Positions 20,488-42,299 of a DNA stretch of 64,000 nucleotides are shown piece by piece. The stretch is from Paenibacillus aceti. Lineage in GTDB: Bacteria > Bacillota > Bacilli > Paenibacillales > Paenibacillaceae. The position numbers were made by a program, and so were the translations under genes. The stretch lies in contig NZ_KZ987724.1 of assembly GCF_003614185.1 (NCBI RefSeq), forward strand, positions 5,446,135-5,510,134. Reading direction: 5' to 3'. The notes beneath the pieces were generated by a model. It had not been told where the DNA came from. It was given only the letters and a program-made list of their open reading frames with translations, and did not search any database. The number at the start of each line of letters is the position of its first letter. Positions within the stretch are counted from its first letter, which is position 1.

Positions 20488-21356
20488 CAGAGGAGAAGTT
20501 CGCTCAGATCCGGGCAGAGATTCGCTCCGGTCTTGATGTTACTTCGACGCTTCAGGATGAGCAATTAATGGACTATATCGAGCAGCATGTGCTCCGGGAT
20601 AATCGGCTGTCCAATCTTACCGCATCGGACAAGCGAAAATGGGTTCGCCGGCTATATGACTCGTTTCGGGGTCTGGATGTACTGCAGCCGTTGGTGGAAG
20701 ACCGTACAGTATCTGAGATTATGATCAACAGCCATGAAGAGATCTTTGCCGAGCAAAATGGTAAGGTGCGCAAGCTTGCGCTCCGCTTCGAATCACAGGA
20801 AAGATTGGAGGATATTATCCAGAGTATCGTTTCCGGGGTAAATCGGGTCGTGAATGAATCGTCTCCGATTGTGGATGCCAGATTGAAGGACGGTTCCCGG
20901 GTCAACATCGTACTGCCGCCGATTGCACTGAAAGGGCCGACTATGACGATTCGTAAATTTCCCGAGCGTCCGCTCACCATGCAGCAGCTGATCGAGAAGG
21001 AGTCACTCAGCGAGGAGGCGGCCCGCCTCCTGCAGACTTTGGTTCGCAGCAAATACAATATTTTCATTAGCGGGGGTACAGGCTCGGGGAAGACGACCTT
21101 CTTGAATGCTCTGTCACGATTTATTCCCACGGATGAACGGGTAATTACGATTGAGGATTCAGCAGAGCTGCAGATCGTGACGCTGCCGAACTTGGTATCA
21201 CTGGAGACTCGCAACGCGAACACGGAGGGCAAGGGAGAGATTACGATTCGCGATTTGATCCGTTCTTCTCTGCGGATGCGGCCTGACCGGATTATCGTGG
21301 GTGAGGTCAGAGGCAGGGAGGCGCTGGATATGCTGCATGCTATAATTAACAAATAG
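20484..21356 (+). pseudogene. cpaF: cpaF/tadA secretion ATPase, 5' part, cut by an integrated element
   Basis: 290 codons remain of a protein that is normally 380-450. It contains the N-terminal three-helix region, Walker A (GGTGSGKTT, about 198-206), the Asp box (VITIEDSAELQI) and Walker B (MRPDRIIVGEVRG). It should continue with Met-Leu-Gln-Ala-Met-Asn-Thr-Gly-His-Asp-Gly-Ser and the His box. Instead, after Met-Leu-His the reading enters element 1 (His-Ala-Ile-Ile-Asn-Lys-stop), the stop lying in the attP arm. Codons for Gln-Ala-Met-Asn-Thr-Gly-His-Asp-Gly-Ser reappear at 42256-42285. The His box is missing, so the fragment should not power a pilus until the elements excise. Confidence 0.93.
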
Positions 21357-21357
21357 G
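21332..21357 (+). other. attL of element 1
   Basis: The cpaF half-site ends at CA (21336-21337). The element half follows: nine bases, then TAACAAATAGG (21347-21357). That arm is the exact complement of CCTATTTGTTA at 42236-42246, which also lies nine bases from CA at 42256-42257. Confidence 0.9.
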
Positions 21358-21372
21358 ACACGGAGTGATAAA

Positions 21373-21582
21373 ATGTATAACGTTAGATTAAATTCCATTG
21401 AACAATTAGTTTTCTTTATGGATACTAAGGGAATGGTTTCAATTGAGTATGGTGAAGAAATCGAAACAGGTTTAATAGAATTAGTTACTGAAGAGCTGAT
21501 TAAAGTGAATGGGATTTATTTTTTTTGGGAATACTGCAATATTTATTTTTCATTGACCTCATCCTGTAAATCAGAAAGGTAG
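21373..21582 (+). CDS. Small hypothetical protein at the element 1 left end
   Basis: The protein is 69 aa, with ATG at 21373 after GGAGTGATAAA and a stop 8 nt before the recombinase start. It has an acidic middle (EYGEEIETGLIELVTEELIKVNG) and an aromatic C-terminal half. Its position between attL and the recombinase, in the same direction, suggests co-expression, possibly as a recombination directionality factor or regulator. That is inference only; no motif supports it. Confidence 0.55.
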   Translation: MYNVRLNSIEQLVFFMDTKGMVSIEYGEEIETGLIELVTEELIKVNGIYFFWEYCNIYFSLTSSCKSER

Positions 21583-21590
21583 GAAATCCA

Positions 21591-23375
21591 TTGAAAGTTA
21601 CGTTTTACGCAAGAGTAAGTAGTGATAGCGAGGAACAAAAAAAATCTATACAGTCTCAAATATCGTATTTTAATGATTATATAGAAAGAAATGGATATGA
21701 ACGTGTTGAAGAGGGAATATTTTATAGGAAGGACGGGACATGTGAACTTACTGAAGGGTACTATGTAGATGAAGGCTATTCTGGAGCTAAGTCATATAGA
21801 CATAGAAAAGCCTTTCAAGAAATGATGAAGGATGCTAAACAAAGAAAATTTGAAATGCTCTTTGTTAAAGATATAAAGAGATTTGGTCGAAATGTTCGTG
21901 AAACATTAGAATGTATTGCAGAACTAAAGAAAAATAATATTGGTGTATATTTTGATGATATTCAGGCTAATACACTAAAAAAAGATGATGAATTTAAAAT
22001 AAATATGTTCGCTGCACTGGCTGAACAAGAATCTACTTCTAAGAGTTCAAGTGTTCATTTTGGAAAAATGCAAGGATTTAAGAAAGGAAAGTGGGGAGGG
22101 AAAAAACCCTACGGCTATAATATCAAAGAAGGAAAATTAGTAATTAAAGATGAGGAAGCAAAAATAGTTAAAATAATTTTTGATTTATACATAAATCAGG
22201 GAATGGGCTTAAGGAGCATTGCAATGAAGTTAAATGAACAGGGGATTCCAACCCAGTCAGGTAAAAATGTTTGGGATCAAAGTTTAATTTCAAAGTTATT
22301 ATCAAACAAAGTTTATACGGGTGAGATTAGAAATCATAGAACTAGAAAAACTGATATTAATTTAAATATTATTGAAAAGGTTCCTCCTGAAAAACAAATT
22401 ATTGTTCAAGATGAATCAATTAGAATAATCGATGATGAGTTATTTAATCGTGTACAAATAGAGAAAGATAAAAGACTCAAGATGCACGGGAATTTTAATT
22501 TGAAGAAAACATTAGTTATTCATGAAGACGGATCGGAAGAATTCGTTTCGAAGAATACATTAAAACGATCGGATACTAGGTATTCTAACAAACATATATT
22601 TTCAAATTTATTAAAATGTGGAAATTGTGGTGGGAGTTTGAGAAGAAAGGTTCAGAATAACCCTACTAAGACTTATATACTTTGGTTTTGTAGGAATAAT
22701 GATCAATTTGGAAAATATAAATGCTCGGAGAGAAATTTACAACATGAACAAGAACTACTAGAGAATATTCAAGAAGAAATAAGGGCATATAAAGATTTAA
22801 ATATTATTTGGGAGCGTTATTTTAGCTATTATTTGTATCTAAAATACGAGACAACGGAATCAGATGAATCAATTTCAGAATTGAATGAGGGATTAAAAAA
22901 GTTAGAGAATAGGAGACAACAAATTCTTGATTTATATCTTGAAGGGAAGATAGAAAAAGAACATTACGAAGTAGTATATGAACAAGTAAATAATGATATT
23001 TCAGATATAAAAGAAAAAATCAATAGGCAAGTATATAAAGAAAAAATGATTTCTGAAGATGTATTACGCTTTAAACATTTTATTGAAAAAATCAATAGTG
23101 TTGATGTAGATAATTTATCTAATACAACCTTACGTGAAATTTTTGAATGTATAGTAATTAATACAAAAGATGGATTTAGGGATTACTCCTTGAAATGGAA
23201 GTTTATGGGCACTTCGTTTGATGAATTAGATTTGGCACTCAAAGAGAATATTAGATTCAGAAAAAAAAGAATAGGAATCCAAAACAATGGAACTGTTGAA
23301 GAGGAACTAAGTGAAGAAGAGGTAGAAGCTATGATGAGTGAAATAGAATTATATGCTGAACCTTATTTAATCTAG
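21591..23375 (+). CDS. Large serine recombinase, integrase of element 1
   Basis: The protein is 594 aa from TTG 21591 (AGGTAGGAAATCCA upstream). The resolvase catalytic domain (1-150) carries the nucleophile Ser10 in YARVSSDSEEQKKSI and the KDIKRFGRNVRETLE segment. A recombinase domain (about 170-285, GKKPYGYNIKEGKLVI) and a zinc-ribbon domain (CGNCGGSLRRK..CRNNDQFGKYKCSE, about 345-385) with a coiled coil follow. It should cut attB in cpaF and attP with 2-bp CA overhangs. AT-rich codon use contrasts with the chromosomal genes to its left. Confidence 0.93.
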   Translation: MKVTFYARVSSDSEEQKKSIQSQISYFNDYIERNGYERVEEGIFYRKDGTCELTEGYYVDEGYSGAKSYRHRKAFQEMMKDAKQRKFEMLFVKDIKRFGRNVRETLECIAELKKNNIGVYFDDIQANTLKKDDEFKINMFAALAEQESTSKSSSVHFGKMQGFKKGKWGGKKPYGYNIKEGKLVIKDEEAKIVKIIFDLYINQGMGLRSIAMKLNEQGIPTQSGKNVWDQSLISKLLSNKVYTGEIRNHRTRKTDINLNIIEKVPPEKQIIVQDESIRIIDDELFNRVQIEKDKRLKMHGNFNLKKTLVIHEDGSEEFVSKNTLKRSDTRYSNKHIFSNLLKCGNCGGSLRRKVQNNPTKTYILWFCRNNDQFGKYKCSERNLQHEQELLENIQEEIRAYKDLNIIWERYFSYYLYLKYETTESDESISELNEGLKKLENRRQQILDLYLEGKIEKEHYEVVYEQVNNDISDIKEKINRQVYKEKMISEDVLRFKHFIEKINSVDVDNLSNTTLREIFECIVINTKDGFRDYSLKWKFMGTSFDELDLALKENIRFRKKRIGIQNNGTVEEELSEEEVEAMMSEIELYAEPYLI

Positions 23376-23407
23376 AGGTTTTCGGGTTGTAAACTGATGT
23401 ATATAAT

Positions 23408-24768
23408 TGAGCGTTTTGCAGTAATCTGAGGCCTTGAGCCGTAAGGATTTTCGGACATAAAAAAGGGACTTCACCCCAACTTGGAGAAGTTTTCAAGTGA
23501 CCAAACCCAAAAACCTCAAGGATGGAGGAAGTCACTTTGTATATTCTCCAAGAATGTCTGTTTTCCTTCGAAGAACTTTTAAAAATTCAACCCAAGGAGA
23601 GATTGCCGATCTTCTTCAGTTCTCTCGATCTGAGACCGTATGCCAAGGAACTGAGAAGCCGTTCACCCCGAGGCGCTGAGGGATACTGCAGACAAGGTAT
23701 TCTACGAGCACTCTTGGCTGCGCCGCTTGAAGGAATAAGTACCTTTTCAGGGTTGCATAAGCGTTTGGATACGGATCTCCGGTTTCGTTATCAGTGTGGT
23801 CTTCCGCTGGATCGAGAAGCTCCTTCCATATCCACATTAAGCCGAGTTTTCTCAGAACTGACGAGAAAGGACTTGGCAAAACGGCTTTTTGAGGATTTGG
23901 TCACACGCTGTCAGCAGGAAGGTATCATAGAAGGCAGTAACGTCGCCATAGACAGCGCCGCTCTCCGCGCTTACGAGAAAAAGCAGCCCAAACGCAAAAG
24001 CGAGCAAACGGGTAATGCGAACTGGGGCGCAAAAATTGATTCCTTCGGCAATAAAATCACATGGTTTGGTTACAAAATTCATCTGGCGGTCGATACGAAA
24101 AGTGAATTGCCGATCGCCTTGGAAGTAACGCCGGCGCATGTCAATGATGGAGAAATGGCGCCGGGCCTGATCGAGAAAACAGCGTCCAGGACGAGCACAC
24201 GATTTTTCATACTCGATGCGGGCTACGACCAAATGAAAGTTTATGAGGCCGCCCGCAACGTCAAGGCACAAGCCATCATTCCCCTTAATCTGCGGGGGGA
24301 GAAGGAACCGCCTGCTGGCATGACCTCGAACGGAACACCGTGCTGTTCCATGGGTTATGCGATGACATACTGGGGAGTTGACGGCGATATGCATAAATTT
24401 CGCTGCCCGCATGCCACGGGTAAAGTCGACTGTCCGCTTGGCATGGCTGCCTGCTCGTCTTCAAACTATGGAATGGTCGTCAAAGTAAATGCGAAGGATG
24501 ATCTCCGGCGATACAGCATCCCTCATCGGGATACAAAGCGTTGGAAGGAACTTTACAATGAACGAACCAGCGTAGAACGCTGCAACTCCCGATTGAAAAC
24601 CTATTTGACGGCAGACGCCGCACATGTCCGGGGCATTCAGAAAGTCACAACTCACCAGTATTTGAATGCCATTGTTCTGCTTGCATCTGCGCTCGCCGTT
24701 TCTCATCATTCAAAACGGGCTGCCGCTTAAAAAACGAGCTGTTCTAAAATTCTGCAAGTCTGCCCTTT
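23408..24768 (+). mobile_element. Insertion sequence inside element 1 (IS4/IS1182-like)
   Basis: One transposase gene is flanked by imperfect inverted ends, near 23408 (GAGCGTTTTGCAGTAATCTG) and, on the complement, near 24768 (GGGCAGACTTGCAGAATTTT). The ends are approximate. GC content is clearly higher than in the surrounding element, so it is a later arrival. It lies between the integrase and replication genes without breaking a recognised gene. Confidence 0.65.
23522..24730 (+). CDS. DDE transposase (IS4/IS1182-type, DUF772 N-terminal domain)
   Basis: The protein is 402 aa. The N-terminal DUF772-like helical domain (about 40-120, YCRQGILRALLAAPLEGISTFSGLHKRL) is followed by a DDE core: Asp144 in VAIDSAALRAY, Asp232 in FILDAGYDQM and Glu352 in RTSVERCNSRLKTY. 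A cysteine-bearing insertion lies at about 274-311. The real start may be TTG 23537, nine bases after GGAGG, rather than ATG 23522, which overlaps that site. All catalytic residues are present. Confidence 0.88.
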   Translation: MEEVTLYILQECLFSFEELLKIQPKERLPIFFSSLDLRPYAKELRSRSPRGAEGYCRQGILRALLAAPLEGISTFSGLHKRLDTDLRFRYQCGLPLDREAPSISTLSRVFSELTRKDLAKRLFEDLVTRCQQEGIIEGSNVAIDSAALRAYEKKQPKRKSEQTGNANWGAKIDSFGNKITWFGYKIHLAVDTKSELPIALEVTPAHVNDGEMAPGLIEKTASRTSTRFFILDAGYDQMKVYEAARNVKAQAIIPLNLRGEKEPPAGMTSNGTPCCSMGYAMTYWGVDGDMHKFRCPHATGKVDCPLGMAACSSSNYGMVVKVNAKDDLRRYSIPHRDTKRWKELYNERTSVERCNSRLKTYLTADAAHVRGIQKVTTHQYLNAIVLLASALAVSHHSKRAAA

Positions 24769-25040
24769 TCTTCACCCATATAATACCATTTTCGAAAATT
24801 ACCCCTTAACGACAGTGAATATGCTATCGCTTCTTCTCTGAAACGGAATTATGCAAAACACTCAATTAAGAAATAAAGAATCAATTTCATAATATCTTTA
24901 ACTGCTTCAATTAAGAGTTATGAAATTGATTCAAATACTAATCGACATTAGATGCTATATTAATAACACATACATTGGTCGTATGTAACTAATATTATTA
25001 TTATGTTTTATTAGTATTTTCTAATGTCTAAATTGACAGA
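24769..25040. other. Gene-free region with inverted repeats, possible replication origin of element 1
   Basis: No gene is seen. GAATCAATTTCATAA (24879-24893) and its exact complement (24918-24932) form a 15-bp stem. ACATAC-7-GTATGT (about 24967-24985) is a second hairpin, and CATTAG and CTAATG pairs flank it. All lie directly upstream of the Rep_trans-like gene, where rolling-circle origins or oriT sites are often found. The origin call is inference. Confidence 0.4.
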
Positions 25041-25054
25041 GGAGAGATGCGATA

Positions 25055-25852
25055 TTGATTGATGTAAGTGTTGATACTCTATGCCTAGTAAGTAAATTAA
25101 ACAGTTCACAGATAAGTGAAGTCTATAATCATATTGACTTTACTCAATGGAACGGTAACAAAGTATGGAAACATTGTATTTACAACAAAGAAGAAGGATA
25201 CTATATTTATTTCATTCCAAGAGGTGGCAATGGAAAGTGGCTAGGGAAACATTATAATATTATGATTTTGCTACAAAAAGAAGCGTTGCTTAATAAGCCA
25301 GCAATAATAGAATATTTAATTAGAGCTTCCGAATGGACAATCAAGCGTTTAGATATAGCCTTTGATTATTATGAATCTATTGATAGAAGCTTCTTATTGC
25401 GGTCGGGGAAATCTAAATTCAAACCTTATAAGGGTACGAGTAATTATTATTATTACGGAGATCGTAATAGTAAAAAAATATGTCATTACGATAAAAAAAA
25501 TCAACTATTAGAACGAAAAAATATAGTGATAGATGAAGATGTACTAACAAGATTTGAAGTAAGATTAAGACCTAAACTAAAAGATAGGCATCTTATTAAT
25601 GGTGATTTTGGTTGGGTTCAAAATGAGCTTTCAACGATAAAATTTGTTGCTAACTCAGGTGTGATTACTAAACATCTAAAAACAAAAGAAGATAAACAAT
25701 ATTTTAGGAACATTAAAAGACGACAAAAACAAGATTGGACGAGTATACCTCGCTCAAATAAAACACGAATACGAAAGGTGATAGATGAACATGCTATTGA
25801 CCTACATGAAGAATGTAAAAAACATGGAGTATTTGATCAGCTCAAATTCTAA
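25055..25852 (+). CDS. Rep_trans-type replication initiator / MobT-like relaxase
   Basis: The protein is 265 aa from TTG 25055, nine bases after GGAGAG. It shows the pattern of the Rep_trans family (plasmid RepD-type initiators, ICE NicK/MobT relaxases): WTIKRLDIAFDYYES, YYYYGDRNSKKICHYDKK, and TRFEVRLRPKL. These proteins nick one strand through a tyrosine and start rolling-circle replication or transfer. It is shorter than typical members (about 300-400 aa). With the upstream inverted repeats it may let the excised element replicate, or be mobilised by a conjugative helper. Confidence 0.65.
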   Translation: MIDVSVDTLCLVSKLNSSQISEVYNHIDFTQWNGNKVWKHCIYNKEEGYYIYFIPRGGNGKWLGKHYNIMILLQKEALLNKPAIIEYLIRASEWTIKRLDIAFDYYESIDRSFLLRSGKSKFKPYKGTSNYYYYGDRNSKKICHYDKKNQLLERKNIVIDEDVLTRFEVRLRPKLKDRHLINGDFGWVQNELSTIKFVANSGVITKHLKTKEDKQYFRNIKRRQKQDWTSIPRSNKTRIRKVIDEHAIDLHEECKKHGVFDQLKF

Positions 25853-25913: not shown

Positions 25914-26061
25914 ATTTCATATTAAACTGGGTACAAGTGAATCAAAAGGTTATTATATTTATTATCTGATTGTTTATACAAAAATGATAATATATAGAAA
26001 ACAAAAGAAGTATCTATTATAATATAGGAAAAAAGAACCAAAATTGAAAGAGGGGACGACC

Positions 26062-27492
26062 ATGACTGATGAAGTGAAATCATTAGCTGAGTTACCTGAA
26101 AACAAAATAGTAAGTGGAGTGGAGAATTTCTCAGAAGGTCTACATTCTTTTTTAAGTTATCTCGGTCTTCCAACAGAGAATGTATTAGTAGCTTCAGAAG
26201 AAAGAAGAACTGTAATTAATAATCTCCCAGCTATTATGGACAAGATTACACCTGAAATTAGAGCTAATTCTATGTACCTATCACAGTTTATTGCAGCCTG
26301 TGGTGCAGGTTTGTTCAATGCAGCACTGAATATGATCTGGAATGAGGTTGTGGTTAATTTACGTCAAAAAGTAATGCACTTTGACTTTCAATATTTCTTA
26401 GATAGTGTTGTTACAGATGTAAGGAGAAGAGCTTCCATAAAATCTGAAGAGGATTTAGCAAAATTAGATGAATGGGAGTTAATTAAAGGGTGTAAAGATA
26501 CAGGGATTCTTACTGATATTGGATACAAGCATATGGATTATATCAGAGAAATGAGAAATCATGCTAGTGCTGCCCATCCTAATCACAATGATTTAGATGG
26601 ACTACAATTGGCAAGTTGGCTTCAAACTTGTATCAAGGAAGTGTTAGCAAGAGAACCTGAAGGTCCTGTACTGGAAATTAAGAGATTACTCCATAATCTT
26701 CGTACAAATGATATTTCTAGAGATGATGTTCAACCAATAAAAGCGAGTATTCAAAGACTACCTGTTGATCTTGCAGATTCAATATTAAGAGCTGTCTTTG
26801 GTATGTATACAGATCCAACCTTGGATGCAAGGATTAAAAATAATTTAATTCTGGTAAGTCCAAGTTTTTGGGAGTGTAGCTCGAAAAACGCAAAAAATGA
26901 TGCAGGGATGAAATATGCAGTTTTTTCTGCTAACGCTGATATTCAAAGGAAACAACTTGCTAATGAGTTTTTATCATTAGTCGGAGGTCTATCATATCTG
27001 TCTGTGGAACAAAGAGCAATAGAAATGGATCAGATTCTGGACGGTCTGTATTCAGCTCATTATGGGTGGAATAATTTTCATAATGAGCCCCCTTATGCAA
27101 AGATGTTAGTACCATATGTACCTAAGACAGGCGAAATTCCAAATGAAACTAATTATAAATATGTAAAAGTATTAATATTGTGTCGTATTGGGAATGGTTA
27201 TGGTGTCTCTGATGCGGCAGCATACTATTATGATGAATTAATTTCGCGTTTTGGTGAATCCCAATTTTTAATATTTGTTAATCTGTTATGGGAATCTGAT
27301 ATACAATCACGATTAACTCATGCAGACTGTGCAAATCGGTTCAAAAATTTCGCTGGACAGTTTGCTAATCGATCTATAAATGTGAAATTAAAAACTGCAC
27401 TTGAAGAGATTGAAAAGACTTTTTATTCGGCATTGAGTAAGCTCTCTAATGTCAGTAAATTCGATGAATTAGTAAAATCAATAGTTATTTAG
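26062..27492 (+). CDS. HEPN-motif protein, candidate defence RNase
   Basis: About 476 aa from ATG 26062 (AGAGGGG upstream); the TTG at 26044 is less likely. It is helical throughout. Near residues 165-172 it has REMRNHASAAH, an Arg-Asn-His..His arrangement (R-x6-H) like the catalytic motif of HEPN-domain RNases, preceded by MDYIREMRN. The remainder (DLADSILRAVFGMYTDPTLDARIKN) resembles no domain I know. HEPN proteins often act in abortive-infection or toxin systems. No partner antitoxin lies beside it, and it stands alone between two terminators. Function is a hypothesis. Confidence 0.6.
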   Translation: MTDEVKSLAELPENKIVSGVENFSEGLHSFLSYLGLPTENVLVASEERRTVINNLPAIMDKITPEIRANSMYLSQFIAACGAGLFNAALNMIWNEVVVNLRQKVMHFDFQYFLDSVVTDVRRRASIKSEEDLAKLDEWELIKGCKDTGILTDIGYKHMDYIREMRNHASAAHPNHNDLDGLQLASWLQTCIKEVLAREPEGPVLEIKRLLHNLRTNDISRDDVQPIKASIQRLPVDLADSILRAVFGMYTDPTLDARIKNNLILVSPSFWECSSKNAKNDAGMKYAVFSANADIQRKQLANEFLSLVGGLSYLSVEQRAIEMDQILDGLYSAHYGWNNFHNEPPYAKMLVPYVPKTGEIPNETNYKYVKVLILCRIGNGYGVSDAAAYYYDELISRFGESQFLIFVNLLWESDIQSRLTHADCANRFKNFAGQFANRSINVKLKTALEEIEKTFYSALSKLSNVSKFDELVKSIVI

Positions 27493-27553: not shown

Positions 27554-28771
27554 TACAAATTTCGAAGAGCACTTAGTTGCTCTTTATAGCTTGTTCACTA
27601 GAACCGCCTATTTACATCCAAGTAACAGTAAAATCTAGTATAACTTGAACTCTTCTTGTTGTAAGGCGCCCAGAAGCTCTGAGACGAACAGAAATGATGA
27701 AGAGGTGTTATTTGTTATCTTTAAGTTATAATGCGTTCTAGGCAAGTTACAGGGCTTCTTATTATGTTCCTATATCGGGTTGAAGTTGACTAAAAAGAAA
27801 ATCTGTGTTTTATACTGATTTTACGGCTGAAGACCTATAAATCAGCTACAATTCCTCATATCTTTCCGATTGGAAGACACTCAACTGAAAAAGCAGCAGC
27901 AGCCAGTTTGAAATGCTTAGAGTAGCTAATTTAATATAGAAAAAATAGTAATTTCCAATTAATTTAAAAAGTGACTTTCTCAAAAGTATCATATTTTACC
28001 TGCCCTATATAATTAGAATTATATATTATTTATTAATATAATTATTATTAATATACTAGTATATATATTATATATATAATTCTTATTATATAGGTGAGGT
28101 AAAATATGATACTTTTAGAAAAGTCACTTTTTCAAGTTACTGGAAAAGTACAGTCATGTATTTTATACGCTCTCTACGCCCGTTTAAATCGATTTTAATT
28201 TCCCACCCTCCGACTTTACCACATTGTTCATTCAGAGCCTTCTAGACACCTTGGAGATTGTCTGAGACGACGTTCATAGCTTGGTGTGCTGCGGTTAATA
28301 ACCAACTATCTACCTAATGAGTAAACTTAATCTAGGAGCCTATAACCATAAATTTTTTAATTATGAAATAAACTGATATTCTCTACTTTCTCTTACCAGA
28401 GACCCTTAATTAGTTCATTCTTACTAATAGTCACTATTTTGATTCATGATGGATAGTTAATAAGTTGGGCAAGGAACTGTACTACAAAGCCGGACAATAA
28501 TACCCTCAAGCCTAATCTAGATAATTTTCCATGATTGATCATTTTTTTGTAGTATCCATATCACTGAGAGATTACGATTCACTCATAATATGTATGAGCA
28601 AAGTAAAGTGGGTTAAATATTTTAAATACATACTGTTAATTCCATCTGTGGTAAATATAACAAATTAGTAGTATAATGAATTTAATCTCATAGCTTCATT
28701 TATTATTTAATATGGTGTCTAATAAACGAAAGAGTAGATATTTTTATATTTGATAAGGAGACTATCTAAAT
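27554..28771. other. 1.2-kb gene-free region
   Basis: No intact gene was found on either strand. Stop codons are dense, base composition is AT-rich, and the only striking structure is the large inverted repeat at 27966-28132. The stretch around 28200-28320 is somewhat richer in GC and may hold decayed coding sequence, but I cannot name it. Confidence 0.5.
27966..28132. repeat. Large inverted repeat (about 40-bp arms, AT-only centre)
   Basis: The left arm 27966-28004 and right arm 28093-28132 are complementary through a 20-bp perfect block (AGGTAAAATATGATACTTTT on the right) and a 13-bp perfect block (AAAGTCACTTTTT), with a 3-base mismatch between them. The 88-bp centre is almost pure A/T and itself partly palindromic (TATATATATTATATATATA-like). 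It could be a single-strand origin, a MITE-like insertion or a barrier cruciform. Confidence 0.7.
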
Positions 28772-29905: not shown

Positions 29906-29910
29906 TTCCT

Positions 29911-30675
29911 TTAATTTGTAAGATTATTTTGTAAATGTAAAGTCCATTCATAAGTACCGCTTTGACGTTTAAGTGTAATGTAAGTATTGACTCCCATTAC
30001 AACATTAGATTCAAGAGCAGGCCAAGAAGATGGGGCTGTGTAATCAAACGTATTTTGATTAGGATATAAATCTCCAGAGGACTTAGAAACAGCTATCCCA
30101 CTTCCTTGAGCATTTCCTGTAATACCGTATTTAACTTTACGCTCTATTATTAAAGTACCATGATCATAACTATTCCAACCACCACTTACAGAGTCTAATT
30201 TATAAGTATATAAGTTATTATTAGTTGATCTTGTATATTTTACTGTAGAATATGCCCTTACACCTTTAGAGCTATCCCAGTCCTCTTCTTCTTTACTACC
30301 TCTAGGTTGAATAAGGCCGGGTTTTTCTTCGTCGGTAGATTTTTCCTCCGTATATACTAGGAATGAAACTGTTTTGAAGCTCTCCTCAAGTACTCCATTT
30401 TTTTCGACTGCTAATAATTTTTGAGTTGTTGTATATTCCTTTATAGTTCCATTAATAGGGGCATCGCTAACAAATGCTATATTCTGGTCAGGGTTTTTAC
30501 TAACTACATCGCTGATCCCGTGTTTAGCTCTTTCATAAAGTAAATCTATATCAGTAATTTCTTGAGCATTGTAAAGAACTTTACTATCTAACTCGGATAA
30601 GGAATTTGCAAAACTGACATTTCCAAATGAAAAAATAAAAATAAAAGACATAACAATACCAACGATTTTTTTCAA
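29911..30675 (-). CDS. Secreted protein of unknown function
   Basis: About 254 aa from TTG 30675, nine bases after AAGGAG; the GTG at 30684 sits on the ribosome site. The signal peptide MKKIVGIVMSFIFIFSFGNVSFA is followed by an N-terminal acidic domain, a charged linker (TEEKSTDEEKPG) and a beta-rich C-terminal domain with Trp/Tyr-rich strands (YTYKLDSVSGGWNSYDHGTLIIERKVKYGI, TYEWTLHLQ). It resembles extracellular jelly-roll-like or immunoglobulin-like folds in character only; no family is recognised. Confidence 0.7.
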   Translation of the reverse strand: MKKIVGIVMSFIFIFSFGNVSFANSLSELDSKVLYNAQEITDIDLLYERAKHGISDVVSKNPDQNIAFVSDAPINGTIKEYTTTQKLLAVEKNGVLEESFKTVSFLVYTEEKSTDEEKPGLIQPRGSKEEEDWDSSKGVRAYSTVKYTRSTNNNLYTYKLDSVSGGWNSYDHGTLIIERKVKYGITGNAQGSGIAVSKSSGDLYPNQNTFDYTAPSSWPALESNVVMGVNTYITLKRQSGTYEWTLHLQNNLTN

Positions 30676-30684
30676 TTGAATCAC

Positions 30685-32519: not shown

Positions 32520-32558
32520 TAAGTTACCTGAAATATCCATATTGAGGTGATTAGCGAA

Positions 32559-33428
32559 ATGGGTGAATTGATAAATATTGATGTATTTGTAACAGATAAA
32601 AAAGTGAATGATGCGATTCAACTACAGGTTGATAAGAAATTAAATGTTTATAAAGGAGATTTTAAAAGATTTAAATACTACTGTTCAATAAACAACCGTG
32701 AAATTAACTTTGAATCACTTGAAGTATATTTATATGAAACAATCGAAAATGGTTTAAAACTATCTACTTTTAATAGAAGATCAGCAGCAATTAAATATCA
32801 TCTTGAGAATGTATATGAGTTATTGCAAACATCAGAGCAGCGAAAACGAATTGCACAATTAAGAAGTATTTATAATAATCAGGAGTATAGTGAACAAAAA
32901 CGGATTCAAGGTCAATCAGCACAGCCTAAAGATGAAGTGTTGATGCTTATTAAGCAACTTGATGTTCGAGCCAAAGCAATAACTCTACTTAATTTAGTAA
33001 CTGCTGCGAGACCGAGTGAAATGATTACCCTTAGAATAAAACATATTGATTTGCAAAGTCGCTCAGTGAGTGTATATATGAAGAAACAAAATGAATGGAA
33101 AGTAAAGAGGCTTACATTAGAATGTACTAATGCAGTTAGGTCGTATATAAAAGAATACGGCTTACAAGATGAGGATTATTTTGTTGGACAAGTAGACAAG
33201 CATGGAAATTATACAAGTGCGAAAATCAGTGATACAGCTTATCGTAAGACTATACATAAATGGCTAGGCTTTGCCCCATATACACTACGCAAAACTCAAA
33301 TAACAGCGATGCATGAAGTTGGGGCTGATATTGCTACAATTGCTAAACAAAGTGGTCATAAGAATCTAGAGACGATTACGAAGCATTATCTTGAAGTAAA
33401 TGATACTTTGGTAGATAAATATATTTGA
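32559..33428 (+). CDS. Tyrosine recombinase/integrase-like protein with altered catalytic box
   Basis: About 289 aa from ATG 32559, nine bases after GAGGTG; the GTG at 32547 overlaps it. An N-terminal SAM-like core-binding domain (about 15-110) is followed by a catalytic domain with Arg-I (TAARPSEMITLR), the Arg-II region FAPYTLRKTQITAMHEVG, the box-III histidine in SGHKNLETITKHY and the nucleophile Tyr (HYLEV). The usual His of the His-x-x-Arg box is replaced by Tyr (Tyr-Thr-Leu-Arg). It may be a low-activity or specialised recombinase (for example dimer resolution) rather than the integrase of this island, which is the serine enzyme. Confidence 0.75.
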   Translation: MGELINIDVFVTDKKVNDAIQLQVDKKLNVYKGDFKRFKYYCSINNREINFESLEVYLYETIENGLKLSTFNRRSAAIKYHLENVYELLQTSEQRKRIAQLRSIYNNQEYSEQKRIQGQSAQPKDEVLMLIKQLDVRAKAITLLNLVTAARPSEMITLRIKHIDLQSRSVSVYMKKQNEWKVKRLTLECTNAVRSYIKEYGLQDEDYFVGQVDKHGNYTSAKISDTAYRKTIHKWLGFAPYTLRKTQITAMHEVGADIATIAKQSGHKNLETITKHYLEVNDTLVDKYI

Positions 33429-33554: not shown

Positions 33555-34949
33555 ATGTATAATTCTCTAGAAAAATTTTTTGAATTAGTTGAAAAGGGAA
33601 CAGAGAATAATAAATGGGACTATAAAAGAGATATTCACTTAAATCCAAACATTTCATTTGCAAATTTATTAAAAGATATATTAGCGTTTGCAAATAGCGG
33701 TGGCGGCTGGCTAGTCTTAGGTGTTGATGATAATTGTAATATAGAAGGTATAGAAAATAAGATCGACCCGACATCATTAGGTCAAAAAATATTAAGCCAA
33801 ACTGGTGAGCAAATAATATTTGATTTAAATTACTATAATATTTATAAAGAATCAGAAAAAATAGTTGGTTTATTGTATATTCATGATTCTGAAAAAGTCT
33901 TAGTCTCGCCAGACAACTTATACAATGATAAAGGAAAACCAATAGTTAGTGAAAATACTGTTTATTATCGTAGAAATGCAAGTTCGATTAAAGCAAATAT
34001 AGATGATTTAAATACTCTTATTTATAAAATTAGTCAGTTAGGCAAATATGAATTTAAAAAAGAAGACATTAATTTGCTAGAAAGTAAAAAGTCAGAATAT
34101 TCATTGTTTAAAGAAGAATCTAATTTTTATAAAGGTGAATTTAAATTTGATGTTGCAACATTTGCTGATAAATTGAACACTATTTTCCATTTTTATCAAA
34201 CTAAGTACACTAAATATGAAATAGGAATTTTGTTAGGTTTTGAGGTTAATGCAATTGATGATTATTTTGACGGTAAGAGATTTCCTAAACTAGAGCATTT
34301 ATTACGTGCTGTTGAGATATTTGATTTACCGCATGATTACTTTTTCCAAACAACAATCTATATGAATAAACCATTTATACAGGAGCCTTTGATAACATAT
34401 GTAATATTAGAGAAAACGGAAGATAAACTAGGATTGTTTAATTACGGTTTTGGTAATGCTGTTGAAAAAATATTCAGCAATACAGCAGAAGAGTTTTCTT
34501 ATTTTAAAAAATGGTTGTCTTGTAATAAAAGAGAAGAATTAAAACCAAAAGAAGATGAACGGAATTGGTTGAATGAAACTATGATTATGTATGAAAATTA
34601 TGAGAAGTATTTGGATAATATTGGGGAATCATCATACAATGAATTTAAAAAGCATTTAAGTGTTCAATACTATAAGGAATTGGAAAAAACCCCTGGAGTA
34701 AACGAAAGATTTTTAAATGAAAAAATAATGACTAATTTAACACATAGTAATACTAATTTTGTATGTAAATTTATTTCAGAATTAATTAGAAGAATACATA
34801 TAATAGATGGAGAAATTCATATAGAGTATAATTTTATGTACGAAGTACAAAATAAATTGATTCGTCATAGAAAATATGATGAAAAGAATATGAAAGTGAT
34901 TTTTAGTGGTGAAAGAACTTTAGATATTTCAGTTGACTGTGATTATTAA
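33555..34949 (+). CDS. AlbA_2 (Schlafen-type) domain protein
   Basis: The protein is 464 aa, with ATG at 33555 after GAGGGGG. The N-terminal Schlafen AlbA_2-like domain (about 10-155) shows WDYKRDIHLNPN, KDILAFANSGGGWLVLGVDDNCNIEGIE, GLLYIHDSEKVLVS and VYYRRNASSI. A middle HTH-like part (TKYTKYEIGILLGFEVNAIDDYFDGKRFPKLEHLLRAVEIFDLPHDYFFQ) resembles an XRE domain. The C-terminal 190 residues are unassigned. AlbA_2 proteins are common in regulators and phage-defence islands; here it precedes a DUF4365 gene. Role inferred. Confidence 0.72.
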   Translation: MYNSLEKFFELVEKGTENNKWDYKRDIHLNPNISFANLLKDILAFANSGGGWLVLGVDDNCNIEGIENKIDPTSLGQKILSQTGEQIIFDLNYYNIYKESEKIVGLLYIHDSEKVLVSPDNLYNDKGKPIVSENTVYYRRNASSIKANIDDLNTLIYKISQLGKYEFKKEDINLLESKKSEYSLFKEESNFYKGEFKFDVATFADKLNTIFHFYQTKYTKYEIGILLGFEVNAIDDYFDGKRFPKLEHLLRAVEIFDLPHDYFFQTTIYMNKPFIQEPLITYVILEKTEDKLGLFNYGFGNAVEKIFSNTAEEFSYFKKWLSCNKREELKPKEDERNWLNETMIMYENYEKYLDNIGESSYNEFKKHLSVQYYKELEKTPGVNERFLNEKIMTNLTHSNTNFVCKFISELIRRIHIIDGEIHIEYNFMYEVQNKLIRHRKYDEKNMKVIFSGERTLDISVDCDY

Positions 34950-36591: not shown

Positions 36592-36609
36592 ATAAAAATA
36601 AATTATTAA

Positions 36610-39600
36610 TTAGTTCAAATCAATTCTTGTACCAGTGATTTTAACCCCATTAGGACTTAATACTATACCGCTACCTCCACATGAGATAGTAACTTTAGTA
36701 TCAGAATCAATTTTGATTTCTCCAGCTTCGGCATAAATACGCAATGCATCTCCTTGACTTGCATTAAATTCAATTGCTCTTGTTTTATTTGTATCGTTAT
36801 TGTACTGAAATTGAAATGCATTAGATGTTTTTTTTATATATCCAATATTACCACCATTTACACCATTTCCCTGACCCCAAATCATTTCTGGATAACTATA
36901 TTGATTATCGTCTTTTGTTAAATGCAACTTGAACTTTGTAATATCACTTTTTGCTGATGTCCCTGTATTCAGTTTAATGAAGTTATCACGAATATAAATA
37001 TAATCTTGTTCATCCTTGCTGTTTCTAACGGCTTTCAAGCTATTTACCATTAGATCGGAGATATATCCATCGGTTTCTTCGTCTAGAACTAAACCATCTT
37101 CCATATCTGGTTCAATAATTAGCTTTCTAGCGCGAAGAGTGCCATCATTATGAATCCAGAATCTCTTTTCGCCTTTAACATCAATAGTTATACCTTTATT
37201 GGCATTCAATCTAATTTGCTCATCATTCTGACCATTTATAGTGATACCTTCAAGTGAGTCAAAGATAATTGCATCTCCAAGTTTAGCGTCAAGAATTCTC
37301 AGTCTCTTAGTACTCATATCCTCAGCGAATAAATTACCATCCACGTCTACATAAAAGACTTTATACCACACTGGAGAGCTTGCGGTTCCATCGTTTCTTT
37401 CAATCTTGATGCCCTCAGTCGCATTTAGAGTAGTTTTATTCTTATAGTTACCTCTGGTGACTACTACGCCATTCACAGCGTCTATAACAGTGTTGTTATA
37501 GTTCCTACCCAGTTGTAGCGAACTCTTCTCTAGGAAGTCAGACAGCTTCGCTCTAGCGCCCTCATAAGCCTTGTAGAAGTCTTCCCACTTCTGGTGGAAT
37601 ATAAATCTAGTAGAGTGAAGATCGTTCACTATATGGGTCGTAGCGTTCATATTAGAGAATATAGGATTCATGTAATTGGTCAATGCATCATATGTTGACT
37701 CTAACTCATTTCCAGCTCTGACCAATTCTTGTTGAGCAGTATCTAATCCATAATAGGAAGAATCCCTATCATCATAAATAGTCGTTGCGTACCGATATAT
37801 TTGCTCTTTGAGAGTAATATATTGTTGTGTGATAGTCTTATAAGTGTTAGATAAAGTGATTTTCTCCATTGAGGTAATAACATCGTCTAGGATGATATTG
37901 TCAATAACGCTAAAGTCAATATTCAATCCATCTGAATCAAGGATTACATCACCAAACTTATTTTCGATCCTCAAACGCTTTGCAACTAAGTCTTCTGCAA
38001 TCAGAGTTCCATCTTCATATGAAGAGTTACCAATAGAAGCATATACCTTATTGACCCACTTGTTCTTCTCCCACTTCTGCAATGCTAAACCATTTGTAGC
38101 ATTCAACACTGAACGATATTTACCATCACTACGTAGAGCAATGAAGCCATATTCTCCAATGACAAGGTTGTTGTAAAAACTACCCATATTAAGACCAGAA
38201 TAAAACTGAGCATCCTCGATCAAATTCCGTAATCTCTTCTCTTCATCATAATAAGTTTTAAATTTGAGAATGAATTCAGCTCGATCAGGTACTTCACTAG
38301 TTTTTTCGGTTAGAGGAGAGTTAATATCGATATTCAATGGCACTTGAGTGACAATTGAAATGTACTGAGACATATAATCAAGTAAATCAAAAAAAGCCTT
38401 CGTCAAAGGCTCCGTGGAGTACAAGTCTTTTGTGCTGCTGGTCTTAGTAAGGAATTGAGCTTCTATATCAAATTCATCATCACGTTGGGATCGCTTATAT
38501 TTTTCAGCTTGCTCCAACATTCTATAATATGCAGATTCGATCTTATGCAGTTCAGTGATGAGCTGCATCTTTTCTACGGATGTTAATTTGTTATCCATGA
38601 TGATATTACTTAGATCGCCAAGATTAAGATAGTTATTCTCAGCATCTAGAATGATATCTCCAACATTGTTAACGATCTTAATGTTCTCAGCAACCAGATC
38701 ATGAGTATATAAGGTTCCATCTGTAGGGTCTGCCCACATGATCTTCTCCCAGCCATCAGGATGATGTAATTTATCAGTTGTTGCACGATCAATAACAAAT
38801 CCCTCAATATTGTCCATTTTAACTCTGGTAATGTCGTTAAATGACCATAATCCAAACTTGTCAGGATTCTCAGCTACAAGACCTGATTTCATAACTAAGA
38901 TTCCGTTGCGATCAAAGATTTCTCCTTTAGAACCTTGGAATTTTAGAACACCATCTTCATCTTGAAGTGCAAGGTTAACACCCATCCATATTTTTCCGTA
39001 AATACGTTCGCCAACGATCAAATGTTTTTCAAAATGATCCAATGCAATCTGTACATTAAAAATGTTTAGATTTTCTTTTTCTTTAACCTCACATTTTAGA
39101 AATTCGCTAATGCCTTTTTGATTTATTCTATATACAGTTAATGTACCACCAATACCCTCATAAGATATTTCATCAAATACGGATTTAAATACTTCAGGAA
39201 CACTTTTTCCTATTGAGATGTATTTACAAACTGAATTATAGGATTCCTCTGTTTTGATTCCCGCCGAGAGAATATTTACTCCATCCTTAGGAATGTCTGT
39301 GTATGTGATAATATCGAACTTATTATATGGTGAAAGTTGATACAACCACGTTTTATTATCCTTATACTCACCAATAACTACATCAATTTTTTCGCCGTTG
39401 TAGCTATTAAGGAGAATTTCTCTTAGCGAATAAACATTTTTGTTACTTTGATAAGAGAATTGATTCATTACACTATAGCAATAGTCTAGGTTTCCTGAAC
39501 AAAAAACAACCAAGTTGTCGAATTTAAACAACTTGGTCGCTTTTGTATCTAATCTATATAATTGACCACGTAATAGTACTGAGGTCGCTGAATCAGAGCC

Positions 39601-39645
39601 TATGAATATATCACTATTTGTTTGGATAATAGTAGCATTACTCAA
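36610..39645 (-). CDS. Phage tail-spike-like protein with N-terminal Ntn-hydrolase-like domain
   Basis: The protein is 1011 aa. Residues 1 to about 190 (ATIIQTNSDIFIGSDSATSVLLRG, TKLFKFDNLVVFCSGNLDYCYSVM) resemble a proteasome/HslV-type Ntn-hydrolase unit seen in some Bacillus-group phage proteins. The rest is a repetitive minor tail or receptor-binding protein: the unit NNTVIDAVNGVVVTRG..TTLNATEGIKIE..FYVDVDGNLFAEDMSTKRLRI recurs in at least three degraded copies (near 290, 520 and 750), with coiled-coil insertions and a beta-rich C-terminus (IVLSPNGVKITGTRIDLN). No other tail, head or lysis gene is nearby. The start overlaps the preceding HTH gene by 8 nt. Confidence 0.75.
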   Translation of the reverse strand: MSNATIIQTNSDIFIGSDSATSVLLRGQLYRLDTKATKLFKFDNLVVFCSGNLDYCYSVMNQFSYQSNKNVYSLREILLNSYNGEKIDVVIGEYKDNKTWLYQLSPYNKFDIITYTDIPKDGVNILSAGIKTEESYNSVCKYISIGKSVPEVFKSVFDEISYEGIGGTLTVYRINQKGISEFLKCEVKEKENLNIFNVQIALDHFEKHLIVGERIYGKIWMGVNLALQDEDGVLKFQGSKGEIFDRNGILVMKSGLVAENPDKFGLWSFNDITRVKMDNIEGFVIDRATTDKLHHPDGWEKIMWADPTDGTLYTHDLVAENIKIVNNVGDIILDAENNYLNLGDLSNIIMDNKLTSVEKMQLITELHKIESAYYRMLEQAEKYKRSQRDDEFDIEAQFLTKTSSTKDLYSTEPLTKAFFDLLDYMSQYISIVTQVPLNIDINSPLTEKTSEVPDRAEFILKFKTYYDEEKRLRNLIEDAQFYSGLNMGSFYNNLVIGEYGFIALRSDGKYRSVLNATNGLALQKWEKNKWVNKVYASIGNSSYEDGTLIAEDLVAKRLRIENKFGDVILDSDGLNIDFSVIDNIILDDVITSMEKITLSNTYKTITQQYITLKEQIYRYATTIYDDRDSSYYGLDTAQQELVRAGNELESTYDALTNYMNPIFSNMNATTHIVNDLHSTRFIFHQKWEDFYKAYEGARAKLSDFLEKSSLQLGRNYNNTVIDAVNGVVVTRGNYKNKTTLNATEGIKIERNDGTASSPVWYKVFYVDVDGNLFAEDMSTKRLRILDAKLGDAIIFDSLEGITINGQNDEQIRLNANKGITIDVKGEKRFWIHNDGTLRARKLIIEPDMEDGLVLDEETDGYISDLMVNSLKAVRNSKDEQDYIYIRDNFIKLNTGTSAKSDITKFKLHLTKDDNQYSYPEMIWGQGNGVNGGNIGYIKKTSNAFQFQYNNDTNKTRAIEFNASQGDALRIYAEAGEIKIDSDTKVTISCGGSGIVLSPNGVKITGTRIDLN

Positions 39646-39901
39646 TATTACTCACCTCTTTCATGGGATATAGATTTTTTATTGTCTGGTTAGATATTTT
39701 GATAATTGATGTGCGATATTTTTCCTCTTTGTCTCTGCTAAGATTAACAATTTCATTCTCATACATTGATAACATTGGTACCGACACTCCTACTATGGCG
39801 GAAATTTGTTTGAGTTTGATTCCTTTAAATTGTCGTAATAACTTATATTTCCCCCGTAAGCTAATGTCATTAAAACATTCGAATTCATTTTTAGTTTGCA
39901 T
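39638..39901 (-). CDS. Small XRE-type HTH protein
   Basis: The protein is 87 aa, with ATG at 39901 seven bases after AAGGAGG. The middle KYKLLRQFKGIKLKQISAIVGVSVPMLSMYENEIVNLSRDKEEKY is a Cro/CI-like HTH. It overlaps the start of the large tail-spike-like gene, so the two are translationally coupled. It may be its regulator. Confidence 0.7.
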   Translation of the reverse strand: MQTKNEFECFNDISLRGKYKLLRQFKGIKLKQISAIVGVSVPMLSMYENEIVNLSRDKEEKYRTSIIKISNQTIKNLYPMKEVSNIE

Positions 39902-40275
39902 TTATATTCCTCCTTAAGATGTCTTCTACCCATTAAAGTCATTACGACTTAAAAAGTTACTTAAAAAGTTAAGTGATTTTGGGATGGAGAAAACTCTAAG
40001 AGCGGGTTGTATTCTTTAGCGAATTGCTCTGTAGACGTTTGAGTGATCTTGTATTTACGGATACTAGCGTAGCTCTAACATCTTGACTATTACTGAAAAG
40101 AGTTTTCTTAAACATATTTTTATCACGGAGGAAGCGGAATGCGGATGAGAGCCTATTCGTTACATTAAATTAGTTCTATTTGACCGCTAACCTATTGAAC
40201 ATTTAATCTCCTAGACCTATATTGTCGATTAATGATATAATTATGGAAAATATTGAGATTGGGGATATTAGAGGG
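39902..40275. other. Gene-free divergent intergenic region
   Basis: It separates the minus-strand HTH/tail-spike pair from a plus-strand membrane protein, so promoters of both must lie here. No clear box pair was seen, and no other gene. Confidence 0.35.
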
Positions 40276-40584
40276 ATGGAATCCAATAAAATTGCAAAAG
40301 TCATTCTATGGATCGGTATCATAGAAATTTTTTTAGCTTTCATTGTAGGAATTGTATCAGGGCAACCGGAAAGCAGCTATGATAGTTTCCATTGGGCAAT
40401 TGCTTTTACATGGTGGGTAGGTGGTTTTGTATCTGGGATGCTCTTTTTAGCATTTTCAGAGGTAATAAACATTCTTCATGAAACACGATATTATACATAT
40501 CAAAATTATCTATCGCATGGTGGGGAACGAAAAGTTGAAAAGGAAACAGCTTCTCGTTTTGAATCTTTTAGACCAAATTTTTAA
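40276..40584 (+). CDS. Small membrane protein
   Basis: I prefer ATG 40276 (GGGGATATTAGAGGG upstream), giving about 102 aa. There are two membrane segments (KVILWIGIIEIFLAFIVGIV and FHWAIAFTWWVGGFVSGMLFLAF) and a polar C-terminal tail. No family recognised; earlier in-frame starts at 40222 and 40243 lack ribosome sites. Confidence 0.6.
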   Translation: MESNKIAKVILWIGIIEIFLAFIVGIVSGQPESSYDSFHWAIAFTWWVGGFVSGMLFLAFSEVINILHETRYYTYQNYLSHGGERKVEKETASRFESFRPNF

Positions 40585-40721
40585 ACTATATATTCTGAAG
40601 TACTAGATCTATTTCTTAGACGAGTTGGAGCTATTGTTGGTGGTATGAGCGGAATAGCTATAGAAAAGACAGAGGAAATAGTAGAACAAAATTACATACT
40701 AATTGAGTGATAAAATAAAGG

Positions 40722-40858
40722 CGAAGAAGTAGTAAATGTTACCGTCCGAATATACAAGTTCATTTTGTGATGAAATTATTAAGAAGGCTTAAGGGGAAGG
40801 ACTTACCAGTTGAAGGAGTTAAAGATGTAGTAACTAAAGAACCATATGAAATATTATG
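40722..40858 (+). pseudogene. Frameshifted remnant of a small protein gene
   Basis: Three adjacent frames hold successive coding-like pieces (VVNVTVRIYK, then DEIIKKA, then RLKGKDLPVEGVKDVVTKEPYEIL and stop at 40856-40858) that would join with small indels into a protein of about 50 aa. It is followed at once by a terminator. Confidence 0.35.
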
Positions 40859-40887
40859 AAAAAGAGTGTCCTTTTCTGGACACTCTT
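40858..40887 (+). terminator. Terminator
   Basis: AAAGAGTGTCC-TTTTCT-GGACACTCTTT hairpin with T-tracts; it can end both the plus-strand remnant and the minus-strand gene at 40968. Confidence 0.8.
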
Positions 40888-40967
40888 TCTCTGTTAGTAG
40901 TGGTTATTCTTGTGAAAATATTCAGTAAAATTATTATCCATATCTACACCATCCTTGTTGAATTAAC

Positions 40968-41594
40968 TCAATTTACTAGTCTTTTCTTGCCAACAATCAT
41001 TTCTTCTATTGAGTCTATAACTTTCACAGTATCCTGTAAAAAATATTGTTCTTTACATGACAAACATCTAGCAGCACCTTTTACAGTAACTCCTCGAATT
41101 GATTCTTGACCTGGAAACGATAAATCTATTTGGGTATTCTCAACATTGTTGCAGCCACAAGAACAATTTATTAAATTGACAGCCATTTCTTCGTAATCCT
41201 TCTGTAATTTCCTGTTCTGATAAAGTACGGAGTGTTTCTCTATTTTTTCTTTGTTTAACTTAATAAAACTCATAAGTTCACTTTCTTCAGGGGATTTTTC
41301 ATTTTTAATGATTTCTAGAAGATCAATTTGAACCCTAACTACAGTTTTAAGTGACTTTTTCACTAAGGATGAATATCTATTCTCTAACCATTCAATCCTT
41401 ATCTTTATATCATCATCGAGTACTATAACAAGACTATTCATTATTTCCTGTAGGGTTTGCCCTTTAAAGTAGTCTTTAAACGAAGGGGCATTAACTTGAT
41501 TAAGAACTTTGGATAATACCTTCAAGCTATATTCCAATCTGGCTTGTTCTGTTATCTCCTCAGAACACTCATTAATGTTATCACTCATACTCAT
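40968..41594 (-). CDS. Hypothetical protein with C-terminal zinc-ribbon-like cysteines
   Basis: The protein is 208 aa. Residues 1-140 are helical with coiled-coil character (VRVQIDLLEIIKNEKSPEESELMSFIKLNKEKIEKH). The C-terminus has CSCGCNN and CLSCKEQYF about 35 residues apart, a likely four-cysteine metal site. It follows the 136-aa gene at 41665 in the same direction. Function unknown; both genes lie next to attR. Confidence 0.62.
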   Translation of the reverse strand: MSMSDNINECSEEITEQARLEYSLKVLSKVLNQVNAPSFKDYFKGQTLQEIMNSLVIVLDDDIKIRIEWLENRYSSLVKKSLKTVVRVQIDLLEIIKNEKSPEESELMSFIKLNKEKIEKHSVLYQNRKLQKDYEEMAVNLINCSCGCNNVENTQIDLSFPGQESIRGVTVKGAARCLSCKEQYFLQDTVKVIDSIEEMIVGKKRLVN

Positions 41595-41664
41595 ACTCCC
41601 TTGTTATTTTTCCGTTAGCCATCTCAATTGAACATGGATTTTATTTAGAATTTAAGAGATTGCT

Positions 41665-42066
41665 TTATAGGATTGTTAATTTTGGCTTTTGTAAGCAAAG
41701 TAACTGCATCTCCTCACCAGTCTCCATACAAATCAATGACACTAAGATAGGTTTCTTTTCATCATAGCTTTCTAAAAACTTCTCATAACCTGATCCTTTT
41801 GTATCAGTTAAACCAGCGAACCCAATAATTTTTGACTTTGCTATAAAACTAAAGTTTAGGGAAATACAGTCTTCCTTTTCAATAATTTCGACTTGGCTTG
41901 TCAATAAAAAATTAACACTAGAGTTTTTGGTTTGATTACTAAGACCAAGAAAACTTTTGGACTCAATGACCTGATTAACAATTGATAAGTACTCTGTCCT
42001 AGTAGTAAAAGCCTTTCCAATAGCGGGACTAAATCCTATTTGTCCAATAAAGATTTGATTTTCCAT
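41665..42066 (-). CDS. Hypothetical protein near attR of element 1
   Basis: About 133 aa from ATG 42066, nine bases after GAAGGA; the ATG at 42075 overlaps that site. Beta-rich pattern (MENQIFIGQIGFSPAIGKAF, VNFLLTSQVEIIEKEDCISLNFSFIAKSKIIGFAG). No motif known. It heads a two-gene minus-strand unit with the zinc-ribbon-like gene, about 170 bp inside the right end of the island. Confidence 0.58.
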   Translation of the reverse strand: MENQIFIGQIGFSPAIGKAFTTRTEYLSIVNQVIESKSFLGLSNQTKNSSVNFLLTSQVEIIEKEDCISLNFSFIAKSKIIGFAGLTDTKGSGYEKFLESYDEKKPILVSLICMETGEEMQLLCLQKPKLTIL

Positions 42067-42235
42067 AGATGTCATTCCTTCGAGGTGTTTTTTGAATCAT
42101 CAATGTATCATAACAATATTAAATTGTAAAGTTATTACTTTTATTCCAGTACTTTCTCTAGAACTAGGTGATTAATAACCTTTTGTATAGCCAATCATCA
42201 ATGTTCGTAATCTAGACAAGTATTTTTTTGTATGA

Positions 42236-42299
42236 CCTATTTGTTATCTGTTACGCAGGCGATGAATACCGGACATGATGGAAGTCCATCATGGGTATT
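42236..42299 (+). other. attR of element 1 joined to attL of element 2
   Basis: From left to right: arm CCTATTTGTTA (42236-42246), nine bases, crossover CA (42256-42257), then cpaF codons for Ala-Met-Asn-Thr-Gly-His-Asp-Gly-Ser to about 42285. After that, sequence that is not cpaF runs into the second recombinase gene. The second junction is itself symmetric: CATGATGGA (42274-42282), AG, TCCATCATG (42285-42293), with AATACC and GGTATT outside. AG at 42283-42284 is therefore the likely crossover of element 2. Confidence 0.88.

Follow-up and report, generated by a model that had tools for sequence, protein, structure and literature searches.

Insertion of a 20.9-kb element into the Tad pilus motor gene cpaF of Paenibacillus aceti, probably by its own large serine recombinase, and a second insertion site 27 bp downstream

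What interrupts cpaF, the motor ATPase gene of the Tad pilus, in Paenibacillus aceti, and how did the interrupting DNA come to lie exactly where it does? In the window, by which we mean the whole 64,000-nucleotide stretch analysed here, cpaF starts at 20484, and its 5' part (20484..21337, forward strand; Pfam T2SSE, 5.4e-43; 74–90% identity to the best match in same-genus genomes) is cut inside codon 285 (Gln) behind its second base, that is, after the CA at 21336–21337. The conserved codons are back after another CA at 42256–42257 (both on the forward strand, the right one read directly in the window). These breakpoints, proposed in an earlier note on this DNA, hold to the base, as does the island of about 20.9 kb with a CA crossover: the DNA in between, element 1, measures 20,920 bp, and the CA and the symmetry around it are repeated in elements of relatives. 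The G+C content per kilobase is 0.40–0.55 at 10 to 21 kb of the window; between 22 and 42 kb it is 0.26–0.40 in all but one of the 20 kilobases, the exception being at 0.455.

With a weakly ParA/CpaE-like gene upstream of cpaF and two T2SSF (TadB/TadC-like), a TadE-like and a prepilin peptidase gene beyond the insertions, the locus is a Tad pilus operon. What remains of CpaF stops directly after the EVRGREALDML segment; lacking the GHDGSLSTGHAN motif and the C-terminus, the truncated protein should be inactive. After the right CA of element 1, just 25 bp of cpaF follow (42258..42282, forward strand; read in the window and compared with same-genus cpaF) before element 2 begins, with its core at 42283–42284; the rest of cpaF is found at C1:70615, near the start of the same contig. 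Since element 2 also splits cpaF, removal of element 1 alone would not restore the gene.

The empty site, attB, was rebuilt by joining the cpaF parts and compared with 29 cpaF loci from 29 of 40 same-genus genomes. No base is gained or lost: 28 of the 29 loci carry MLQAMNTGHDGS and one carries MLQAMNTGHEGS, the Gln codon being CAG in 28/29 and CAA in 1/29. The motif MLQAMNTGH(D/E)GS lies across the predicted attB in all 29, which bears out the proposal that the rebuilt attB encodes the CpaF consensus, and no uninterrupted gene without this attB was seen among them. Twenty-six of these genes continue unbroken past both sites; in G032, G018 and G026 attB 1 is intact and a different element lies 27 bp downstream. 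G026 also holds a second, unbroken cpaF-like gene (G026:C14:742594-743709; 65% to that of the window) besides the element-split one.

The element-side arms lie 9 nt from CA at either end, TAACAAATAGG on the left (21347..21357) and CCTATTTGTTA on the right (42236..42246), both given on the forward strand, so that the joined ends read CCTATTTGTTA-9-CA-9-TAACAAATAGG. The earlier description of a perfectly symmetric attP is correct for the 11-bp arms, which are exact, and fails for the 9-nt spacers, where three of nine positions match. In 20,000 arm shuffles, an inverted run of at least 11 appeared once at the CA centre and 12 times at any of 13 centres; chance symmetry is ruled out by the shuffles and by 12 elements, among them some close relatives, that show the same symmetry. 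A core of GC or GCA instead of CA was also rejected, as several relatives have unlike bases to the left of CA at their two ends, and shifted centres lose the symmetry.

The integrase of element 1 (594 aa, TTG start; 21591..23375, forward strand) has the Pfam domains Resolvase, Recombinase and Zn_ribbon_recom, a zinc ribbon, in the order that identifies a large serine recombinase (LSR) of the phiC31/Bxb1 type. Residues Ser10 and Arg8 are invariant in ten aligned LSRs, that of element 1 included, and we take both to have catalytic-site roles, with Ser10 as the catalytic serine near the N-terminus. The sites are likewise of the LSR type, attP having inverted arms around a non-palindromic 2-bp core common to attB. 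LSRs of this type recombine attB with attP unaided and require a directionality factor for excision; no such factor was identified.

Site 1 recurs across the family. A full-length CpaF search of 395 Paenibacillaceae genomes gave matches in 391, and 33 genomes were re-searched, 31 chosen by eye because their best E-value was poorer than in their genus-mates, plus G121 and G057, which had no match at the cut-off (G378 and G391, incomplete and likewise with no match, lay outside this set). Junctions were read in 26 genomes with a break at either site, plus G000 (the genome of the window), G018, G026 and G032. In at least 30 of the 395 genomes cpaF is broken at site 1 or site 2, a lower bound since the re-searched set was picked by eye; re-searched genomes counted at neither site were G031, G313, G338 and G326 (other breaks) and G306, G121 and G057 (no orthologue seen). 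Site 1, the Gln codon, is broken in at least 13 of the 395 (G000, G048, G085, G102, G145, G183, G274, G280, G296, G299, G315, G362, G381). CA is present at both ends in 12/12 site-1 elements read at both ends, own included, and the arms, with common forms TATATAATAGG and TATAAAATAGG, are symmetric about it at 160 of 192 positions, compared with 48–79 at 24 other centres (12 elements). In G048, G085 and G315 the ends share more than CA, and the crossover there is fixed by symmetry, not by shared bases. A held-out element of P. allorhizosphaerae, from the scan of named genomes, has CA at both ends and symmetry of 14/16 versus at most 9 elsewhere; CA thus stands at both ends in 13/13 elements read at both ends, own included.

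Both LSRs of the window were searched for in the element ends, usually about 3.5 kb each. An LSR of the element 1 group was found in 11 of the 13 site-1 elements, in other genera as well, which supports the assignment of the gene at 21591–23375 as the element's own integrase. G085 has no LSR like either of the two across its 15.5-kb element, so some site-1 copies are relics; in G274 the 3' part of cpaF was not found, nor was an LSR in the stretch searched. As to whether the same island might have its ends elsewhere in other genomes, the body of element 1 was not refound (its 482-aa cargo gene occurs in 1 of 390 family genomes), and all 11 integrase relatives read at both ends stop at the same CA. 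It is the LSR group and the site that are common to the relatives; the 482-aa gene is not. Six of those 11 relatives were first reached via a broken cpaF, and integrase-led counts are less biased.

An integrase search of 246 family genomes (E 1e-30) gave 30 rows in 25 genomes, with a cpaF fragment within 1.5 kb of the integrase in four of them (own, G102, G145, G183); in G048, also at site 1, the fragment lies beyond 1.5 kb. These five are the best full-length rows, with identity of at least 37%. A partial relative in G221 (38%, residues 236–580) has no cpaF within 1.5 kb, its genome having one full-scoring CpaF match, and the same distance holds no cpaF in 24 rows at 27–36% identity. Since the 25 rows without a site-1 cpaF are 27–38% identical and several are partial, site choice is a trait of the closer integrase group only. 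A profile of ten site-1 LSRs was also run against genome_contigs, where 80 of 89 loci were kept. Eleven of the 80 reach at least 35% identity, all in Paenibacillus, and ten of these sit at cpaF, nine with a cpaF fragment within 4 kb and the tenth (L170, P. terrigena) at site 1, where about 9 kb separate the integrase from the cpaF part; nine of the 11 overlap genomes already counted, only L164 and L173 being new. The exception is L173 (P. radicibacter, 35%), where cpaF, tadB and tadC are intact and the LSR stands directly before a TadE-like gene of the same operon, i.e., between tadC and tadE (L173, L256); about 160 kb follow tadC, the start of this stretch encoding a recombinase zinc-ribbon fragment and a phage holin. 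Of the 69 remaining loci, L242 alone shows an ATPase match, a weak one without a break at the site.

The second site, site 2, lies 27 bp downstream of site 1 on the Ser codon of GHDGS, and the window's genome holds elements at both. It is broken in at least 18 of the 395 genomes (G000, G018, G026, G032, G047, G054, G090, G168, G198, G224, G238, G267, G321, G342, G345, G349, G350, G383), the junctions of G054 and G321, whose elements stop at contig edges, being read at one end only. In the window, the symmetry centre of element 2 is the dinucleotide AG at 42283..42284 (forward strand), the first two bases of this codon, and the centre falls on these two bases in all 16 elements read at both ends, with a symmetry sum of 180/256 versus 49–100 at 16 other centres. 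The core is AG in 12 of the 16 and TC in four, the same dinucleotide at both ends; of 26 intact same-genus cpaF genes, 20 have an AGY codon here and six a TCN codon. The TC-core elements (G026, G198, G267, G345) are not grouped by integrase: in the LSR tree G345 (TC) pairs with G342 (AG), G198 and G267 branch apart, and the integrase fragment of G026 (TC) is 84% identical to the LSR of the AG element in the window. As the TC elements are scattered among AG integrases, cores have likely been switched from one Ser codon block to the other, judging from these sequences.

The LSR of element 2 (493 aa; 42326..43807, reverse strand; Pfam) is one of 15 intact LSRs of its group among the 18 site-2 elements, with a fragment in a sixteenth, that of G026. 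No crossed pairing of LSR and site was found in the stretches searched, where site 1 had no LSR of the element 2 group. Identity is 36–88% within the site-1 group, 40–100% within the site-2 group and 20–28% over the aligned parts between them, 157 of 165 pairs aligning. The tree sets the two groups apart with support 100/100 ("group" rather than "clade" here, given midpoint rooting). This separation shows the two sites to have different enzymes; as the LSRs were collected by site, it is not a measure of the specificity of either enzyme family.

Our preferred reading, to which we assign a probability of roughly 0.93, is that element 1 is an integrative element placed in cpaF by its own LSR through attP × attB exchange at CA, cpaF being a double dock. 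A circular attP, CCTATTTGTTA-9-CA-9-TAACAAATAGG, would have been recombined by this LSR with an attB in cpaF whose centre is the Gln codon in the conserved motif MLQAMNTGH, strand exchange taking place at CA. The insertion would truncate CpaF after residue 284; the Tad pilus motor would presumably be lost, and pili probably with it. The reaction may be reversible, with formation of a circle. Both cores coincide with positions 1 and 2 of a conserved codon, Gln (CA) and Ser (AG/TC); placed away from the wobble base of an invariant codon, a core would probably stay matched across hosts.

Compatible with this reading is an old immobile remnant, with boundaries and origin as described and an integrase that is dead now; we consider it possible, if on the unlikely side. 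The case for it comes from the contents of element 1, scanned as ORFs of at least 80 aa without overlapping or antisense ORFs (18 with Pfam, 10 with NCBIfam, 17 with PHROGs). On the forward strand are a transposase (23522..24730; domain and NCBIfam scans, nearest NCBIfam model IS1182, under its cut-off), a possible, weakly matching Rep_trans-type replication/mobilisation protein (25055..25852; Pfam 5.1e-4, under the cut-off), the 482-aa phage-associated protein phrog_27609 (26044..27492; PHROGs; in its own genome only), a tyrosine recombinase (32547..33428; Pfam Phage_integrase, 1.1e-19) and a Schlafen/AlbA_2 domain protein (33555..34949; Pfam). On the reverse strand are a phrog_27470 family protein (29911..30684; PHROGs), a 1011-aa protein like the phage minor tail protein phrog_6211 (36610..39645; 1.3e-96) and a weak replication-initiation-like protein (40968..41594; 2.3e-5). 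Apart from the weak Rep_trans match, no relaxase, coupling protein or mating-pair gene scored above cut-off (18 ORFs in Pfam, 10 in NCBIfam), and apart from the tail-like protein no terminase, portal or capsid was found (18 ORFs in Pfam, 17 in PHROGs). Hence, by these scans, element 1 is neither a complete prophage nor an ICE, and may be a satellite, a mobilisable element or a remnant. The mix of a transposase with phage-like genes and the existence of LSR-less copies (G085) argue for immobility; against it, the integrase has an open frame that keeps its three domains and its catalytic serine, and the att arms are exact.

Nor does element 1 correspond to a known phage or plasmid: the top-ranked phage match to its integrase has 29% identity over 88%, and the viral_contigs scan gave no relative. 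The sole plasmid match, in P. cellulosilyticus (48.5%), also sits next to a cpaF fragment with its break in this very codon and, as a probable repeat of G102, was not counted again. Defence cargo was rejected as well, with one weak PADLOC match among 10 proteins. A nested element around the tyrosine recombinase was considered, and the only nearby pair, of 24 nt at 83% (33495, 37386), was not accepted as evidence. At 27952–28146 of the window, element 1 contains a 94-nt inverted repeat, 80% complementary, with a 7-nt loop.

A further-reaching proposal, which we regard as speculative and rather doubtful, sees in the Tad motor gene a dedicated double dock, two LSR lineages having converged there since breaking it pays the element. 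The gain might be the blocking of pilus-borne DNA uptake that could cure the element, or of pilus-using phages; the crossover bases would be fixed on non-wobble positions, and the AG/TC cores would track Ser codon blocks, so that synonymous codon choice would decide which elements enter a host. Croucher and colleagues reportedly described in 2016 a prophage inserting in the competence pilin gene comYC of pneumococcus. Both cases have a type IV filament gene broken by a mobile element at a specific site; comYC belongs to a competence pilus and cpaF to the Tad pilus, where any effect on DNA uptake would be speculative. Tad pili depend on CpaF for their assembly as well as their disassembly, and in Micrococcus luteus they have been linked to transformation (PMC12019362).

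The exact insertion in a conserved motor gene and the presence of an LSR would also suit a programmed switch of the skin or comK prophage type, in which excision under some condition rebuilds cpaF and turns the pili on. We find this highly improbable: element 2 also splits cpaF, so excision of element 1 would be insufficient, the body of element 1 was not found in relatives, and none of the 29 same-genus cpaF has an element at site 1. That the tyrosine recombinase at 32547–33428, an intact-looking integrase within element 1, moves the element instead of the LSR can practically be dismissed, as the ends show the 2-bp core and symmetric arms of LSR sites, lack the longer core repeats that tyrosine-integrase ends usually share, and recur with this LSR group in other genomes.

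Insertion of element 1 by its own LSR follows a principle that is already known, namely LSRs with inferred attB and attP, and convergence on a conserved site. Durrant et al. (2022) report 6,207 LSRs with inferred sites, the ends and sites having been derived from occupied versus empty genomes. A single conserved coding site can be the point of convergence for diverse LSRs, as with a prolyl isomerase site used by 33 of them and with a Mg chelatase gene, and DNA competence genes are enriched among the targets (PMC10083194). Our data resemble that set in how sites were inferred and in diverse LSRs meeting on one conserved coding site, and differ from it in that two sites separated by 27 bp are each used by an LSR group of their own, both being occupied in one genome (PMC10083194). 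The words "ATPase" and "pilus" are absent from its main text, the supplements being outside this statement, and among titles and abstracts, with most subscription journals and supplements beyond reach, no relevant paper on cpaF as an LSR target was found. An integrase with both attB and attP known had been rated a useful find: support for both sites stands, and the find is less unusual than it was scored, thousands having been published (PMC10083194). What the locus offers is twelve integrase-and-site sets read at both ends at one target codon (11 relatives plus own) and a neighbouring second set, which open LSR site choice, core switching and the recognition of arms to direct tests. The Tad pilus operon is a recurrent casualty of mobile DNA in Paenibacillaceae, and this recurrence bears on whether elements gain from silencing pili.

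Finally, element 2 would span about 155 kb if C1 (5,572,757 bp) closes on itself, compared with insertions at site 2 of about 86 kb in G032, 109 kb in G018 and 58 kb in G026. Relatives of its LSR include integrases of the deep-sea thermophilic phage D6E, Geobacillus virus E2 and Paenibacillus phages, at 34–39% identity among the best 10 of 14 matches. The element carries a TraG-like P-loop ATPase and an M23 peptidase, and just right of the window (L032:1347-6478, G000:C1) it encodes a CpaF-like ATPase and a DUF4320 protein; nearby matches to TadB-like and CpaB-like proteins are under the cut-off. Element 2, which splits the host Tad motor gene, thus looks as if it supplies a pilus-like machine of its own, with the TraG-like ATPase gene near. 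About 65 bp before its right end (L160; also L155, L159), a stretch resembles, by eye, a second full attP-like palindrome, most clearly in G032: CCCATGATAGG-TC-TCCATCATGGG.
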